From a virus: a stretch of DNA of 36,690 nt. Shown here piece after piece: positions 3,507 to 23,118 of this stretch. Where the stretch lies: positions 1 through 36,690 of the IMG/VR virus record IMGVR_UViG_3300043570_004187; one strand, written 5' to 3'. The notes below the pieces were generated by a model, which saw nothing but the letters and a program-made list of their open reading frames with translations, had not been told where the DNA came from and did not search any database. Every line of letters starts with the position of its first letter. Position 1 is the first letter of the stretch. Both the position numbers and the translations under genes were made by a program.

Positions 3507-5576
3507 TTATCTTATTACGTCTACGTTAAATAGATATTGATTTTCGTCTGTGCAGTAAATTTCAAATATAGGTCTATCAGAAAGTAACATTGCAGGAGAA
3601 ATAATAGCCATTATTTTTCCATAAGTTCCATTACCTAAAACATTTTGTGAATCAGTTCTGAATATGATATTAAAACCACCATTGTTTATTTTCTCATTGA
3701 AAACAAATTTAAGCATTTGTCCATTTTTCCATCTAACATTTTTATCGTCTATATTTATATACACGGTGTCAGCAAAAGTTTCAATTCCTGTAACAGGATC
3801 CGGATTTTGATTAGTTTGTCTAAATGAATTTGTAAATGTTCCTAACACAAGAATGTTATTATCAACAAGATTTGTAGTTGCATAATTCTGTCCATTACTT
3901 GTAGTTGTTTCTATATTATTAGATGTATTACCACATAACATAAAGTTATTGTAAGCCTGAGTACGATTAATTATTTTTACTTGATTAGGAACTGATTTAT
4001 CAAGTAGAATACCGTCTCCTCCTTTAAGAACATCCGTGTTATAAGTTAAATTAGTTGATAAATTTCCTGAGATAATCAAATTGATATTATCTGCATTCAT
4101 ATTAATCAAATCGAGTAAAGTTGTACTTGATTGAAAAGCTAATTGAGCATTATTCAAAGAAGATTCTAAAGCAGATAATCTTTGAGAAAGTCCTGTGATA
4201 TCACCTTGAGAAAAATAGTATTGTTGTAAAGCTGATATTTGTTGCTTAATTTCAATAATCTGTAGATTTTGAGATAAGAACATTTCAGCAGCTTCTTGCA
4301 TTCTCGTTGAAGCATCAATGAATAAGTCCATGGAGAATGTGTTATAATCATTGATGATAGTTTCAACACCTACATTATCAGCAGAAGTATCAAATTTAAC
4401 ATTCAATTTTAAACCATATCCATTACCGTTAAGTTTAGTAATTTTATTTGGTTTGTATTTATCGAATCTTTTAAGGTAAGAAGGTGCTGATACTTGATTT
4501 ACATAATCATCTAAAACAAGAATACCATATAGGTTTCTTGCTCTATCCATTGGATTAGATGAACTATAAACATCATAATAAACAAGTGCAGCATTGAATG
4601 CAAAATCTTCAGAAGCATCAGAAGCATTAAATTCTGATATTAAAGAGATGTTCGGATCATCTACGATAGGTTTATATGAATCAGCATCAGTATCAAGAAT
4701 TATTCCATCCATTCTAGAAAGAAGAACCGGTTGTGTTGATAGTGCAGTTGATGCAGCAAAAAGTGCTATATTTGCTGGATTTCCAAAAGTCGATGAAGAT
4801 AAGTATGCATCAATAACATCATTATCGTAATAAGCTGTTAATGAAAGTCCAGTAGGGTGAACAGACCCGGCATCTCTACCGTCAATATAAACATTACCAT
4901 TGCTCCATTGTCTGCCAGGAGCATAATTAGAATCTTGATAAGTTTTGAAAAGAACTAAAGGTGTATTACCATGTGTTACCGGAACATTAAGATAAACTTC
5001 ACTATATGAATGTCCATCTCTAGAAACTGAATTAACGATATCAACATCACCAATATATTTAACAACTCTCTTATAGAAAGAAGATTGATCTTCTTCTGTG
5101 AATCTATTTGTAACCGTTGATTCAGCTGCAGTAGCATTTCTGAATCTCATCGCATTTATATTAGCCATCCACTTCCAAAATAACCTTTCAGAAGTTGACC
5201 ATTTTTGACTCATATCGTAAGCCTGTGCAAGATTATTACTTCCGTCAAGTATAAGTTGCTCATAATTCAAAACATAATTTTGAAAAGATTGTGCAAGATT
5301 TATGTTATTGTCGGAATTAATATCAGCTGCAGGAACTGATGAATTAGGATATGTAGTAGGACTTGGACTATTTAATACTCCTAAAGCTTCCCATACAATA
5401 TAATTTTCATTTGATGAAGGAGTCGCAACGTCAGGGATATCTAATAAAGCAAATTTAGAGAATACAAATCTAGCATCGTCATCTGTAAATGTTTTTGAAA
5501 TATCATTCGATGCCGAAGTAAATGTGTAAAACGTTCCACCTTGGACTCTTAACGCATTAATTAGCGGAGTTGCCAT
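3507..5576 (-). CDS. Virion structural protein, probable baseplate/fibre component with central coiled coil
   Basis: 689 residues starting at ATG after an A/T-only leader. I do not recognise a named family. The N-terminus (INALRVQGGTFYTFTSASND) is of a type often seen in myovirus virion proteins. Residues ~430-480 are rich in Gln, Leu and Ser in heptad spacing (IIEIKQQISALQQYY, LSQRLSALESSLNNAQ) and probably form a coiled coil, which would suit a trimer. The C-terminal ~190 residues are beta-rich and Asn-rich, as in phage fibre or wedge-associated proteins. It sits between the short fibre-like gene and the very large structural gene at the left edge, in the operon part that follows gp6/gp7-like wedge genes. 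A receptor-proximal or wedge-periphery role is inference. Confidence 0.85.
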   Translation of the reverse strand: MATPLINALRVQGGTFYTFTSASNDISKTFTDDDARFVFSKFALLDIPDVATPSSNENYIVWEALGVLNSPSPTTYPNSSVPAADINSDNNINLAQSFQNYVLNYEQLILDGSNNLAQAYDMSQKWSTSERLFWKWMANINAMRFRNATAAESTVTNRFTEEDQSSFYKRVVKYIGDVDIVNSVSRDGHSYSEVYLNVPVTHGNTPLVLFKTYQDSNYAPGRQWSNGNVYIDGRDAGSVHPTGLSLTAYYDNDVIDAYLSSSTFGNPANIALFAASTALSTQPVLLSRMDGIILDTDADSYKPIVDDPNISLISEFNASDASEDFAFNAALVYYDVYSSSNPMDRARNLYGILVLDDYVNQVSAPSYLKRFDKYKPNKITKLNGNGYGLKLNVKFDTSADNVGVETIINDYNTFSMDLFIDASTRMQEAAEMFLSQNLQIIEIKQQISALQQYYFSQGDITGLSQRLSALESSLNNAQLAFQSSTTLLDLINMNADNINLIISGNLSTNLTYNTDVLKGGDGILLDKSVPNQVKIINRTQAYNNFMLCGNTSNNIETTTSNGQNYATTNLVDNNILVLGTFTNSFRQTNQNPDPVTGIETFADTVYINIDDKNVRWKNGQMLKFVFNEKINNGGFNIIFRTDSQNVLGNGTYGKIMAIISPAMLLSDRPIFEIYCTDENQYLFNVDVIR

Positions 5577-9980: not shown

Positions 9981-10229
9981 TTATAGATTTATGCTTCCGT
10001 CGTTTTTGTCTAATGTGTAATTGTTATAGAATTGAATTGTTTTAACCGAATCCGTCATTTCAACAAAATATGGCTCTATTCTACTTAAAAATCCATCCAT
10101 TACAGGATTTCCGAACATTCGGTTTGAAAGGAATTTATCAATCATTCCTTCAGTTCTGTAATTATAACCTGTTTCTTTTAATTTATCGTTAGATTGATAA
10201 ATTTTTGTGTAAACTGAATTTTTGTACAT
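9981..10229 (-). CDS. Small baseplate-cluster protein, unknown
   Basis: 82 residues, starting at an ATG that overlaps the stop of the gp6-like gene (TAATG) and ending 1 base before the giant wedge-like gene. This arrangement suggests translational coupling. The sequence is Tyr/Asn/Asp-rich with no signal peptide or membrane segment (e.g. TKIYQSNDKLKETGYNYRTE, then NPVMDGFLSRIEPYF). I do not recognise a family. It may be a small wedge subunit, or an N-terminal piece that in other phages is fused to the gp7-like protein. Neither can be shown from the sequence. Confidence 0.8.
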   Translation of the reverse strand: MYKNSVYTKIYQSNDKLKETGYNYRTEGMIDKFLSNRMFGNPVMDGFLSRIEPYFVEMTDSVKTIQFYNNYTLDKNDGSINL

Positions 10230-11995
10230 TATTTAAGTGCTGTTTTATTTGCATTCATTTGTTTGATGGCTATTGTCTCTTTTATGACCTCTTTAACAAT
10301 TATATTCACTGAAGAATAAGTTGAATCACTCAATCCATCTTCAAAATAATTACCAAATCGATCATACCATCCACCTCGGATAACTGGCATTTCATTTTTA
10401 CCAATAACTATATCACCAAAATCGTCTAATCCGAGATTAGGATCCGTGTTAGTAGGAACTAAAACTTTTACGTCTTGTACCGTTTTAATTCCTCTTATCG
10501 CATCGAAACTTTCTATTTTTTTGAAATAATATCCATCGATTATAGCTTTTTCGTTAGCTTCAGAAACAAAAGAAAGGTTAACAGAATCCACACCCTTTAT
10601 GTTTTCAAGAATTGCTATTATATCCGATTTAGGGATTTTATCTCTTCTTTTAACTCTTAGAAGATAATCCGTTATTTGTGAAGTAACATCATTAGATACA
10701 GAAACAGGATTTGCTGTATCATAAATTCTAAGAAATACATTCATAACATATTTAGTAAGAATCGGATCTATTATCGATAATTCAGAAGAAATGATTTGTT
10801 GACCTGAAGAATTAACGTATCGATATAATGCTGCTTTCTCTTCCTCATCTAAATAGAAATTAATTAGATTTGTTGTGAAATAATCTGAATTTTTTTGAAG
10901 TCTTTTTTCGATATTTGGAATCAAGAATAGATAAATTACATTATCATCGTCGATATATTCATCATCGTAAGTTGTATAAGCATCAACATATGAATAATTG
11001 AATCTTGAAAAGAAATTTACATAATTTTCAGGATTAGCTAAAACAAAAGATCTACTTGTTTTTGGTGCTATTAGCTTAGTTAATTCAGGCCCTTCGGCAT
11101 CTGCTCCAAGAACTATAGGTTTATTTATAGTAACATTAATATATTCGTTAGGATCAATTTCTTCACCTGTATTTGTATACAAAGGCTCTGCCCATTTCCA
11201 TGTAACATCTTCTGTTTTCCCAAATATATTACCACCAAATCCGTCAGTAGTAACATATTCAACCGTTATATTAGCACCTCTATTAGGAATTGTTCCAAAA
11301 TCTCTATTTCCAAAATAGATATCGATTCCATCAGTTAATCCTGTTTTAACCATACATTGTTTACTCCCTTTAGTCATATCATAAAGTGAATCAACAATTT
11401 CGTAAGGTTCTCCATTTACTGTAATTTTTATATTTTCGTTATCAATCTCTTTATTTGCTAGAATACTGAAAGATTGAAGTTCTAATCCAGTTCCTGTCTT
11501 TGTTTGTTGTTCTAAAGACCCTTGAATAATTTTTAGAGGAATTAAAGCCCTTTCAGATTTTTTGACCTTAATACTATCCATATCATTAGAAATTCTAATG
11601 ATGTAAGGTAGTCCGTTATAATCACAATTTATTACAGTTTTGTCAGGGATAGTAGCATAAGAAAAATTAACTTCAGATATTGAAGGTTTCCATTTTATGT
11701 TTATAGTTCCTTCTGCTGAAATGGATCTAGTTGGATTGTGTCCAGCAAGCCTAGCAAATCCATATATAGATCTTCTTTTTGTTGCAGTGTAGATATTTAA
11801 TTCAACTAAAGAATCTTCTAAATAAAGAAAGATCAACTGAACAAAATTTTGCATTACTACTAAAATTTGTCCATATGGAGAAGCTGCTGAAAATATATCC
11901 CCAGCTTGATTATATGTTTCTACAAGATAGTTTTTTATCTGTAGAAATATCTCTCCAAATTTAAGTTTATTGGGTCTTAGAATGTTATTACTCAT
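10229..11995 (-). CDS. Baseplate wedge protein, gp6 / gpJ-like
   Basis: 588 residues. It has the overall pattern of the baseplate J/gp6 family, which forms the ring joining wedges around the hub. The N-terminal helices (VVMQNFVQLIFLYLEDSLVE) are followed by a segment with the typical LAGHNPTRS and a beta region. The C-terminal domain (VSVSNDVTSQITDYLLRVKR, then DIIAILENIKGVDSVNLSFV) matches the helix plus 'I..I..V.GV..v..v' end of the family. It follows the gp25 gene by 2 bases, the same pairing as T4 gp25/gp6 and P2 W/J. Length is close to T4 gp6 (about 660 residues). Confidence 0.85.
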   Translation of the reverse strand: MSNNILRPNKLKFGEIFLQIKNYLVETYNQAGDIFSAASPYGQILVVMQNFVQLIFLYLEDSLVELNIYTATKRRSIYGFARLAGHNPTRSISAEGTINIKWKPSISEVNFSYATIPDKTVINCDYNGLPYIIRISNDMDSIKVKKSERALIPLKIIQGSLEQQTKTGTGLELQSFSILANKEIDNENIKITVNGEPYEIVDSLYDMTKGSKQCMVKTGLTDGIDIYFGNRDFGTIPNRGANITVEYVTTDGFGGNIFGKTEDVTWKWAEPLYTNTGEEIDPNEYINVTINKPIVLGADAEGPELTKLIAPKTSRSFVLANPENYVNFFSRFNYSYVDAYTTYDDEYIDDDNVIYLFLIPNIEKRLQKNSDYFTTNLINFYLDEEEKAALYRYVNSSGQQIISSELSIIDPILTKYVMNVFLRIYDTANPVSVSNDVTSQITDYLLRVKRRDKIPKSDIIAILENIKGVDSVNLSFVSEANEKAIIDGYYFKKIESFDAIRGIKTVQDVKVLVPTNTDPNLGLDDFGDIVIGKNEMPVIRGGWYDRFGNYFEDGLSDSTYSSVNIIVKEVIKETIAIKQMNANKTALK

Positions 11996-16354: not shown

Positions 16355-17122
16355 TTATTTAGTTACGACTTTTTGTTGACTTAAATGAGTAGGTGTCATA
16401 GGAGTGATTGGTGGACCTGTTGGAGCACCTAAATTTCCAAGATGAGTATGGGAATTGAATAAGGTCATGAATTTATTTCCAAGGATAACTTTCTCAGTTG
16501 CTCCTTTGCCTAATTCAATAGTATTCGCATGATCGATGATAACATCTTTAGCTTTCACGTTTACAGCTTTATCAGTGGTTATATTAATATCATTCTTTTG
16601 TGTGATGTTAATGGTTCCGTCGTCCAAAATCTCTACTTTACTATCACCTGAAGCAGTTTGAATAAGAACAGATTTATCATTTTTTATATTGATTTGTGTC
16701 TGTTGATAATCGAGCATTAGCCCTTTAGCTTCAGTAAAGAAGATTTTTACGGCACCGGCAGTCACGGTATCATAAACTATTATATGCGCATTCTCATACG
16801 AGTTTTCAATTTCAGCCTTAACTTCCGTAGATATTTTTTGATTGAAGAAGTATTCAGGATGATATATGTTTCCATTATCAAAACGAATAGAAACAATAGA
16901 TCCTACTTTAGGAACAGAAAAGAATCCACCACCAGAATCAGATCCTCCTGTGTTATTATTTCCCGGATAAGCCCAAGGAATATCTTCATCTGGAATTTCA
17001 TCGAACTTCCCAAAGACTTTTACTTTAGCTCTACCTAGAAATAAAGGATCCGCAACATCTACAACTTCTCCTAACCAGGCAGTTGAATCTAAATCATCTT
17101 TCCAAAAATTCTTTAAAGGCAT
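16355..17122 (-). CDS. Tail spike, gp5-OB / gpV-type central puncturing protein without lysozyme
   Basis: 255 residues. The N-terminal OB-fold (AWLGEVVDVADPLFLGRAKV, then WAYPG, VPKVGSIVSIRFDNG and HPEYFF) is the gp5/VgrG/gpV oligonucleotide-binding-like domain. It is followed by short-period beta repeats (VEILDDGTINITQKNDINIT, KAVNVKAKDVIIDHANTIEL) that would form the trimeric beta-helix needle. Near the C-terminus is FNSHTHLGNLGAPTGPP, a His-x-His tip like the iron-binding tip of P2 gpV-type spikes. Unlike T4 gp5 there is no lysozyme domain; the length matches the lysozyme-free gpV/Mu gp45 type. It acts at the tip of the contracted tube to pierce the outer membrane, in line with a Gram-negative host. 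Confidence 0.88.
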   Translation of the reverse strand: MPLKNFWKDDLDSTAWLGEVVDVADPLFLGRAKVKVFGKFDEIPDEDIPWAYPGNNNTGGSDSGGGFFSVPKVGSIVSIRFDNGNIYHPEYFFNQKISTEVKAEIENSYENAHIIVYDTVTAGAVKIFFTEAKGLMLDYQQTQINIKNDKSVLIQTASGDSKVEILDDGTINITQKNDINITTDKAVNVKAKDVIIDHANTIELGKGATEKVILGNKFMTLFNSHTHLGNLGAPTGPPITPMTPTHLSQQKVVTK

Positions 17123-20889: not shown

Positions 20890-23118
20890 TTAATAAATTC
20901 CTTGAGCTGAATTAGCCAGCAATTCATGAACGTTTTTATGATTGGGAAATCTATCTAATAACAAATTTACTGCTTCTTCTGCATCAGCTGATGAGACTTG
21001 TTGTCTTTTATCTTGAGCAGAAGTAGCTCTATATTTAGATCTTGTTCCTTTATTCTTTTTATTTCCTGGATATTTTTCAGCAGGACTTAAAGTTGTATAA
21101 GTTCTACCTCCTCTATGGAACATTGCCATCATATCCGAACGATCTCTAGGTCTAGCAGGTTTTAGAGTACAAGTAACAGTTAATTTCGTAGGGAAATCAT
21201 CAGCACCTAAAGCACCATGTAAATAATATTCGGATTTTTCTAAAATCAAGTTTCCAATAGAAACTATAGGATTTGCAGGATTACCGACCATAACATGCCA
21301 TTCACCAGTTTCTTCACCTGTAAGTAACGAGTTTACAGCTTGAGCTCCTGCTGCACCTCCACCTCCTTGAGCTCCATCTAATGCTCCACCAATGATATTA
21401 GACATTAAGTTACCTCCAATATTTTTAGCAGCATTACCAATTCCTTCAAGTGTAAGTCCTTCACCTCCAGTAAATTCTTTAATTCTCGTTCCTATATTAT
21501 CTGTTAGTGATTTGAAGTAACCTGTATAATCTCCAGCAAGTAATTTCGCCGGATCACCTAAAGGTCCAACCGTTTTACTAGCTGAGTTAGCTCCACCACC
21601 TCCACCAAAATGTCTAATATCACCTCCCCAGAATTCACCTCTATTAGCCGTCATAACAAAAACGTTAGAGAGTAAATCGATCATAGCTATTTTCGGGTTT
21701 ACTCCATCAATAGATCGAAGTTCATATTCGAATTTAAGAGTAAAAGCTTGTTCAAACAATAAACCTTTTTCTCTCATCATCATGGTTTTTATAACATCTA
21801 AAGGACCATAAACAACGTTTTTGTTAGCGTAAGGATCATTACCTGAACCTCCATTATTATTTGTTTTGTCAGTAAATGCACCTGGAGGAGATCCTGGTGG
21901 TTTTTGTGTGATCCAAGAAACAGCTTTAATTGCATTTCCTAAACCACCACCAATTGCAGCACCCTCATTCCCTTGTTTAGTTTTATTGTGAGAAACTAAT
22001 CCATTTGATATGTATGTGTGAGCATCTCCAATTTCTATAATCATAACTTCACCAAACCCAATTGCTTTAATAGAAGTTATCATTTGATTTCCAGAGATTC
22101 CTTTTATTAGATCTCCTATTTCTAGATCATGTGATCTCTTCCAATTACCAAAAGAATCCATGAATTTATGTGTAGTCGAAACAACTATATTCGATCCATC
22201 TCTAAATTCAATTGAAACTTTAGGTTGTGTTGTTCTCTCGATATAGGTAACTGGGAATCTTCCCCACTTTCCTGTGTATTCATGTAAAGTCCAAACAGTA
22301 TCACCAACTTTAAGTTTTCCTGCTTTTATAGAAAGTTTTTCATTTATCATGATCGGTGTTTCGGGATCAGGACATCCACCACCACCAGAAAGAGTTTGAA
22401 CTTCTGATTCTAATTCTTTCCATTTCATAGCTGATGAAAATTTAAGACCGACTGACTCCCATGTATTAGCTTCTCCGTCTACCCATGTAATTAATCTGGA
22501 AATATCTGGTAGGACTATTTTTTGCCAATCTAGAAGATCATCTGTAATAGGTTGAGTAAATCTTCTTAGAGTAACCATATAATTATTTGGAACGATTCCA
22601 TAATTCTTACACCAAAGAAAATCCTCCCATGCATATTCAACAGCATTAGTTCCTATTCTCGGATCCCCTGGACTTGCAGTCGACCAATTTATTAAATTTT
22701 TTGCAGTAGGATTATTTAGAACATTAGCTAATCCTTCCGAAGGTCCTTGAGACGAACCTAAAGAAACACCACCTCCTTCATTACCAACAGGAGCAGATGT
22801 ACCTAGATCAACTGGTCGGATCAAATCTCCAAGACGATTAGGTTTATCGATATAAGGTTCGGGATTAGGTCCCAAAGTTAACGAATTGTAATAAAAAAGA
22901 GAATATCTATTGAATATAGATTGAGTTGCTCTTCTAGGAGAAGGATTCTTCGTAGTAAGAGATCCATCTGCCATAATTCCAGTTACGCCTTTTGGTAGAG
23001 GAATATCGATCATACTATCCGGATTCTGATCATAGAAACTCTGTAAATATGATTCATCATTATTCGAAGAAAGATCGTAGTAAGCTTGCTCTCTACCTGT
23101 AAAACCTTGAACGGCCAT
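20890..23118 (-). CDS. Tail/baseplate structural protein interrupted by a Hint (intein-like) domain
   Basis: 742 residues. Residues 1-248 and 379-742 are virion-like. The N-part contains NYGIVPNNYMVTLRRFTQPI; the C-part has GEWHVMVGNPANPIVSIGNL and later LTVTCTLKPARPRDRSDMMA, a pattern I associate with myovirus tube/baseplate-junction proteins. Residues 249-378 are a separate 130-residue Hint domain. The flanking sequence is Gly-rich (SGGGG before it, GNEGAAIGGGLGN after), as in an exposed loop. If the Hint domain splices, the mature protein would be ~612 residues; if it cleaves, two fragments result. It is the first gene of the baseplate block after the small unknown genes. Structural role is inferred from neighbours. 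Confidence 0.85.
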   Translation of the reverse strand: MAVQGFTGREQAYYDLSSNNDESYLQSFYDQNPDSMIDIPLPKGVTGIMADGSLTTKNPSPRRATQSIFNRYSLFYYNSLTLGPNPEPYIDKPNRLGDLIRPVDLGTSAPVGNEGGGVSLGSSQGPSEGLANVLNNPTAKNLINWSTASPGDPRIGTNAVEYAWEDFLWCKNYGIVPNNYMVTLRRFTQPITDDLLDWQKIVLPDISRLITWVDGEANTWESVGLKFSSAMKWKELESEVQTLSGGGGCPDPETPIMINEKLSIKAGKLKVGDTVWTLHEYTGKWGRFPVTYIERTTQPKVSIEFRDGSNIVVSTTHKFMDSFGNWKRSHDLEIGDLIKGISGNQMITSIKAIGFGEVMIIEIGDAHTYISNGLVSHNKTKQGNEGAAIGGGLGNAIKAVSWITQKPPGSPPGAFTDKTNNNGGSGNDPYANKNVVYGPLDVIKTMMMREKGLLFEQAFTLKFEYELRSIDGVNPKIAMIDLLSNVFVMTANRGEFWGGDIRHFGGGGGANSASKTVGPLGDPAKLLAGDYTGYFKSLTDNIGTRIKEFTGGEGLTLEGIGNAAKNIGGNLMSNIIGGALDGAQGGGGAAGAQAVNSLLTGEETGEWHVMVGNPANPIVSIGNLILEKSEYYLHGALGADDFPTKLTVTCTLKPARPRDRSDMMAMFHRGGRTYTTLSPAEKYPGNKKNKGTRSKYRATSAQDKRQQVSSADAEEAVNLLLDRFPNHKNVHELLANSAQGIY
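21985..22374 (-). other. Hint / intein-like domain (BIL-type) inside the 742-residue structural protein
   Basis: Residues 249-378 of the host protein. It begins with Cys249 (CPDPETPIMINEKL), has KAGKLKVGDTVWT and a block-B-like STTHKF with His317, and ends DAHTYISNGLVSHN with His377-Asn378. These are the Hint landmarks for N-S acyl shift and Asn cyclisation. No homing endonuclease is inserted (130 residues). The next residue is Lys379, with Thr380 after it, so the Cys/Ser/Thr nucleophile required at +1 for canonical splicing is missing. This fits bacterial intein-like (A-type BIL-like) domains better than a standard intein; cleavage or non-canonical splicing is predicted. Confidence 0.9.

Follow-up and report, generated by a model that had tools for sequence, protein, structure and literature searches.

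A Hint domain in a phage tail-region protein

The window, by which we mean the entire stretch of DNA analysed (IMG/VR record IMGVR_UViG_3300043570_004187, positions 1 to 36,690), encodes on its minus strand a 742-aa protein that contains an intein-like Hint domain. The residue that follows the terminal Asn of this domain is a lysine. Below, Hints with Lys at the first or second residue after the junction (+1 or +2) are called Lys-class Hints, and the features discussed are the following.

20890-23118, minus strand: 742-aa ORF with the Hint, a tail-region protein that is conserved among Bacteroidota jumbo phages
22375-23118, minus strand: N-flank (N-extein), residues 1-248, ending in SGGGG; 64% identity to the homologue L002
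21985-22374, minus strand: Hint (intein-like) domain, residues 249-378, 130 aa, without room for a homing endonuclease
22372-22374, minus strand: Cys249, the position 1 nucleophile, invariant in 41 Lys-class Hints
22168-22170, minus strand: His317, the block B catalytic histidine (STTH), invariant in the same 41
22039-22041, minus strand: Ile360, block F position 4 (F:4), mostly Asp in canonical inteins
21985-21990, minus strand: His377-Asn378, block G, the C-terminal cleavage residues, invariant in the same 41
21982-21984, minus strand: Lys379, the +1 residue; Lys at +1 or +2 is the class signature
20893-21984, minus strand: C-flank (C-extein), residues 379-742; 75% identity to L002
20317-20877, minus strand: adjoining gene with a weak match to baseplate wedge and tail sheath families (phrog_7145, phrog_15542)
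16355-17122, minus strand: T4 gp5-like baseplate hub OB-fold protein (PF04717, phrog_430)
10229-11995, minus strand: T4 gp6-like baseplate wedge protein (phrog_219)

With a slash marking each end of the Hint, the junctions read SGGGG/CPDPETPI...STTHKF...HTYISNGLVSHN/KTKQGNEG, and block B reads S-T-T-H, an S-x-x-H pattern in place of T-x-x-H. The earlier note on this DNA had placed a Hint at 21985-22374, residues 249-378 of the 742-aa ORF, and both coordinates and residues proved exact. Translation of the minus-strand ORF likewise confirms that Cys249, STTHKF and the terminal His-Asn are intact and that Lys379 (nt 21982-21984) takes the place of Cys, Ser or Thr after Asn378, and the predicted fragment lengths, 248 and 364 residues for a 612-residue joined product, are correct.

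When the whole 742-aa protein is searched, the Pfam families PT-HINT and Intein_splicing both match below threshold; the isolated domain gives better matches, with an E of 9e-6, and a Hint HMM whose seed contains the window domain itself matches it with an E of 4e-28. An AlphaFold2 model of the isolated Hint, built with 40 related Hints, adopts the Hint fold with a mean pLDDT of 93 and aligns to known Hint structures with Z scores of 18-21 (best about 21). In short, the Hint match in this ORF is not a chance one. A second Hint was sought across the window and none was found. Purifying selection is stronger on the Hint than on the protein that carries it: between the window and L001, dN is 0.030 for the Hint and 0.072 for the host protein, and dN/dS is 0.057 against 0.10.

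What kind of Hint is this? The modelled fold, Cys249 and the block-B His317 place the domain in the Hint superfamily. Its His-Asn C-terminus (His377-Asn378) is that of a class 1 intein, but the Cys, Ser or Thr that such an intein has at +1 is replaced by Lys379, as it is in L001, L002 and L003, and the F:4 Asp that is usual, though not universal, in class 1 is absent (Ile360). Like an A-type bacterial intein-like (BIL) domain, it is an intein-like Hint with a His-Asn end and no +1 nucleophile, and it lies in a variable region of its host protein, here a Gly-rich loop, not in an active site. A conserved lysine (Lys379) that might act as does the flank Lys of isopeptide-forming, BIL2-like BILs is present as well. 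Two other identities were considered and ruled out: a class 3 intein, which has no N-terminal Cys or Ser and has a Cys at F:4 within a WCT motif, by Cys249 and Ile360, and a Hog-Hint by the His-Asn and the conserved C-flank of a phage protein that follows it.

Host protein and empty sites

Homologues of the host protein are found in viral contigs and in jumbo phages, mostly of Bacteroidota, among them PAU (gp269), Tenacibaculum phage PTm1 (ORF-011), pT24, Chryseobacterium phage MA9V-1 and the Lak phages. In the alignment, L004, L005, L006 and L008 are devoid of the Hint and display a natural empty site, ESEIQSL-QAQEGYGNEG against the occupied ESEVQTLSGGGG-Hint-KTKQGNEG. Thus, the insert is located in a variable loop, which is empty in the Hint-less homologues, and the Gly-rich loop anticipated in the earlier note is borne out. 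Placement in a variable loop is typical of BIL domains, not of inteins.

Pfam and PHROGs searches with the flanks of the host protein and with its Hint-less homologues returned no convincing family, and an AlphaFold2 model of the whole 742-aa protein (8 sequences) has a pLDDT of 37. The neighbouring genes match a gp5-like hub, a gp6-like wedge and other baseplate families, so that, from these neighbours alone, a tail or baseplate role is likely; that the gene belongs to a tail protein, as the earlier note had it, agrees with its position in a tail/baseplate gene cluster. Because several phages keep the protein without a Hint, its processing cannot be essential to the protein in general, and a processing step that would act as a baseplate maturation switch is speculation. 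The Lak megaphages L281 (Lak-A1, 4001-4432) and L286 (Lak-B9) encode an apparent stand-alone Hint; it measures about 160 aa, has tiny flanks (MKTNLNGG/C...HN/SGTNF-stop) and is separated by roughly 14 kb from their homologue of the window protein.

The same site can hold very different Hints. In L001 and L003 the Hint is nearly identical to that of the window, whereas L002 carries at the same position a very different one (CFVEGT...HNYFANGVLVHN). Between the window and L002, identity is 64% in the N-flank and 75% in the C-flank but only 23% in the Hint, and both Hints end in HN/K. Given that the Hint evolves more slowly than the host protein, plain divergence is an unlikely cause of such a low value, and replacement would be the likelier origin of the difference. 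The best tree splits the two Hints, but an AU test leaves a common clade unrejected (p-AU 0.19), and for that reason we do not claim that they were gained independently.

A lysine rule at Hint junctions

Lysine at the junction is far from private to this locus. We scanned viral contigs for the motif H-x-Y-x-x-N-G-h-h-x-H-N, where h is any codon with T as its middle base, and read the residue that follows. This unbiased scan gave Cys 55 times, Ser 29, Thr 26, Lys 9, Arg 1 and Val 1 at +1, which means that Lys occupies +1 in 9 of the 11 Hints that lack Cys, Ser or Thr there. Viral scans in which the next codon was fixed retrieved 106 stretches with Lys at +1, against 34 for any codon starting with G (Val, Ala, Asp, Glu or Gly) and 9 for any codon starting with C. 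In stretches with a residue other than Lys at +1, the second residue is often Lys (GK, AK, VK, LK, RK). Lys is found at +2 in 19 of the 37 remaining Hints without Cys, Ser or Thr at +1, a dereplicated set that was not selected for Lys at +2 (binomial p 4e-14 against a 6% background), compared with 4% of the canonical inteins of the same scans. From +3 onwards, the pooled Hint table contains no Lys enrichment.

Bacterial genomes follow the same pattern, with 10 of 11 genuine Hints without Cys, Ser or Thr at +1 obeying the Lys +1/+2 rule, mostly in Flavobacterium. Seven Flavobacterium-type loci have HN/YK or HN/IK junctions, Stakelama has HN/IK, and HN/K is found in one Lysobacteraceae genome and one Riflebacteria genome. 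As one of the scans required Lys at +1, the pooled Hint table overcounts it, and the bias-free counts are those of the unbiased viral scan, the Lys +2 count and the bacterial scan only; since Hints are related to each other, even these are not fully independent. The rule also has exceptions. Among HTYxVG-type Hints without Cys, Ser or Thr at +1, Lys occupies +1 in L411 (twice) and L414 and is missing in three others, and some Hints without the usual nucleophile have no Lys nearby at all. Base composition can be ruled out as the cause of the lysines, given the absence of enrichment at +3, the 4% at +2 in canonical inteins and 17 cases that obey the rule in GC-rich contigs (51-70% GC). Text searches of the literature found no Lys rule after Hint junctions, though the papers of Dassa, Amitai and Chiarini may mention the lysine. 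Judged from these sequence counts, a large class of Hints, found in phages and in some bacteria, has Lys at +1 or +2 as its conserved signature, and the conservation of this Lys at the junction suggests that it is involved when the protein is cut or re-joined.

These Hints sit in varied protein settings. On Flavobacterium-type chromosomes (L308, L320, L327, L354, L364, L372, L398) a protein has its Hint at the C-terminus, frequently preceded by a Gly-rich linker and followed by a short tail that begins HN/YK or HN/IK. A Riflebacteria ORF of 807 codons (L316) encodes an exported-looking protein with three tandem Hints, every one ending in HN/KG, within a Gly-rich linker ahead of a likely membrane segment. 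Phage proteins of L024, L043, L161, L199, L215 and L237 have two Hints in tandem, the first ending in HN/R and the second in HN/K plus a stop codon, with HN-A-P or HN-S-P just ahead of the first Cys. Another family of viral proteins (L030, L095, L148, L157, L211 and relatives) has a Hint ending in HTYLANGFVSHN/KG, immediately followed by a stretch that resembles PIPWTNLVCYLEP and might be a LamG-like domain. Finally, in the long phage proteins of L147 and L165, single or tandem Lys-class Hints are followed by the flank HN/KDP[LI]AQTFT.

A second property accompanies the lysine. The F:4 Asp is present in 1 of 59 Lys-class Hints and in 70 of 98 canonical ones; the count of the related YD motif differs with a Fisher p of 7e-18, computed without removing relatedness. 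This Asp is known to aid the attack by the +1 nucleophile (PMC10663303), and replacing it increases C-terminal cleavage (PMC12245125). At the same time, Cys1, the block-B His and the His-Asn are invariant across 41 diverse Lys-class Hints, and the class thus looks tuned, not decayed. In a tree of 112 Hints, in which numerous inner forks are unresolved, the window Hint falls in a clade of 21 rows (SH-aLRT 98) that all have Lys at +1 or +2, and the Lys switches between these positions within the clade. This mobility favours a role for the side chain, because the alpha-amine of a residue at +2 is never freed by Asn cyclisation.

Proposed mechanism and its alternatives

To explain these results we propose that the window Hint is a catalytically intact, A-type-BIL-like domain in which a lysine amine resolves the thioester, re-joining the flanks through a peptide or isopeptide bond or releasing them, a reading to which we give a probability of roughly one half. 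First, Cys249 would form an N-terminal thioester with Gly248, assisted by His317. Asn378 would then cyclise and free the C-flank, and this step would be uncoupled from transesterification because there is neither a Cys, Ser or Thr at +1 nor a block-F Asp. Lastly, an amine of Lys379, either the one on its side chain or the alpha-amine that has just been freed, would attack the thioester, and the flanks would become re-joined via an isopeptide or a peptide bond. Hydrolysis of the thioester would yield, as side products, cut pieces of 248 and 364 residues. The anatomy of the domain, the empty site, purifying selection, the Lys rule and the loss of the F:4 Asp are observed, whereas all of these chemical steps, and the role of the Lys, are our inference. 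The view in the earlier note of an intact, A-type-BIL-like Hint, and of self-processing as a possibility, stands; its treatment of the lysine as merely a missing nucleophile does not, given a Lys conserved at +1 or +2 and a lost block-F Asp.

The main rival is an A-type BIL that only cleaves. Asn cyclisation and thioester hydrolysis would cut the protein into pieces of 248 and 364 residues that stay together during assembly, and the Lys at +1 or +2 would just tune cleavage, for example by its charge or through the lower pKa of a nearby amine. BILs without a +1 nucleophile do mostly cleave (PMC7664689; PMC4031507), and the loss of the block-F Asp favours C-terminal cleavage (PMC12245125). Moreover, a position at the C-terminus of the protein is common among Lys-class Hints: in about a third of the class the protein ends within 10 residues of the HN (HNK-stop, HNGK-stop, HNLKPEF-stop). 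With tails of 1-10 residues there is little to re-join, and therefore not every Lys-class Hint can be there for the sake of ligation; such tails weaken the ligation of large flanks as a general purpose of the Lys. A Lys kept in spite of so small a tail fits a residue tied to the chemistry of the Hint itself. Cleavage alone, however, leaves unexplained why a Lys should be kept at either of two positions, and both window flanks are conserved and form a continuous protein in the Hint-less homologues. For the window, cleavage without re-joining is a possible but, on balance, doubtful account.

Could the thioester instead be passed to another molecule? If the C-terminal cut were slow or absent, it might link the Gly at the end of the N-part to a Lys elsewhere, on another subunit or on the host surface, much as in the BUBL proteins with their ubiquitin-like domains. 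The Gly-rich ends ahead of Cys1 and the C-terminal Hints with a Lys in their short tail would suit such a conjugation, and BIL2 joins its N-flank to a Lys of its own C-flank or of other proteins (PMC8616854). We regard it as a long shot, since the N-part and the C-part form one chain in the Hint-less homologues and no partner is known. Nor does an inert insert, a folded Hint tolerated in a loop in which it no longer acts, seem at all probable: several homologues do without the Hint, so the host protein functions in its absence, and the motifs stray from those of canonical inteins in having SxxH and in lacking both the block-F Asp and a +1 nucleophile, but the core catalytic residues are all retained across a very diverse class and the Hint is more constrained than the host protein. 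A canonical intein that recently lost its +1 nucleophile and is decaying would explain a fold that is the same as in class 1 inteins, and is very unlikely in view of a 21-row clade with Lys at +1 or +2 throughout, Lys as the rule and a dN/dS of 0.057.

Returning to the re-joining or release of flanks by a lysine amine, the Lys rule and the F:4 Asp loss, repeated in unrelated hosts, mean that selection maintains an amine at the junction. More tentatively, we envision that the Lys-class Hints could form a mechanistically distinct self-splicing class, present in phages and some bacteria, that uses the Lys at +1 or +2 as acceptor in place of Cys, Ser or Thr to produce isopeptide-joined flanks in virion proteins, although we would not bet on it. 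If an isopeptide bond does form between the N-flank and this Lys, phages would own a compact, ATP-free means to cross-link or re-join their structural proteins, and Lys-class Hints would be a source of new ligation tools.

Relation to known systems

Class 1 mini-inteins (gp41-1, DnaB, Mtu RecA) share the fold and the core catalytic residues of the window Hint but have Cys, Ser or Thr at +1 and usually Asp at F:4, where the window has Lys379 and Ile360. The Hog-Hint of Hedgehog resembles it in fold (Z 18) and in its N-terminal thioester chemistry. However, the Hog-Hint uses the first step only (PMC7664689), whereas the window Hint retains the terminal His-Asn and is devoid of a sterol-recognition region.

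A-type BILs are closer. Like the window Hint, the Clostridium thermocellum BIL (PDB 2LWY; Z 19.4) combines Cys1 and a His-Asn C-terminus with the lack of a +1 nucleophile, and the two are alike in small size and variable-region placement. In the literature consulted, the +1 residue of A-type BILs is described only as a non-nucleophile, for example Tyr (PMC4031507), where the window has Lys, and type A BIL splicing has been proposed to proceed by attack of a freed alpha-amine on the thioester (PMC4031507).

Among solved structures, the profile of the Lys class matches best the BIL2 of Tetrahymena (E 2e-26), with the C. thermocellum BIL at 6e-24 and gp41-1 at 5e-19. By fold, the BIL2 of Tetrahymena thermophila BUBL1 (PDB 6Y75, 6TMM) is top or joint top with a Z of 21.2; DnaB inteins tie with it in score, so that the fold by itself would not pick out BIL2. 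BIL2, too, has no Cys, Ser or Thr at +1 (it has Met) and no F:4 Asp, and according to its authors it splices by a peculiar mechanism, with an isopeptide bond to the epsilon-amine of a Lys (PMC8616854). Unlike the window Hint, with which it shares only about 22% identity, it resides in a ciliate protein, between ubiquitin-like domains, and is regulated by zinc. Its junction is followed by Met-Gln-Val-Ser, and its acceptor Lys must therefore lie elsewhere in the flank, not at +1 or +2; an acceptor Lys fixed at the junction would thus be a variant of the BIL2 theme. The view of Hints without a +1 nucleophile has hitherto been that they are kin of inteins, prone to cleavage, in which the next residue is variable. 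A-type BIL-like Hints as such are known, and a junction Lys as their conserved signature would be a new variant.
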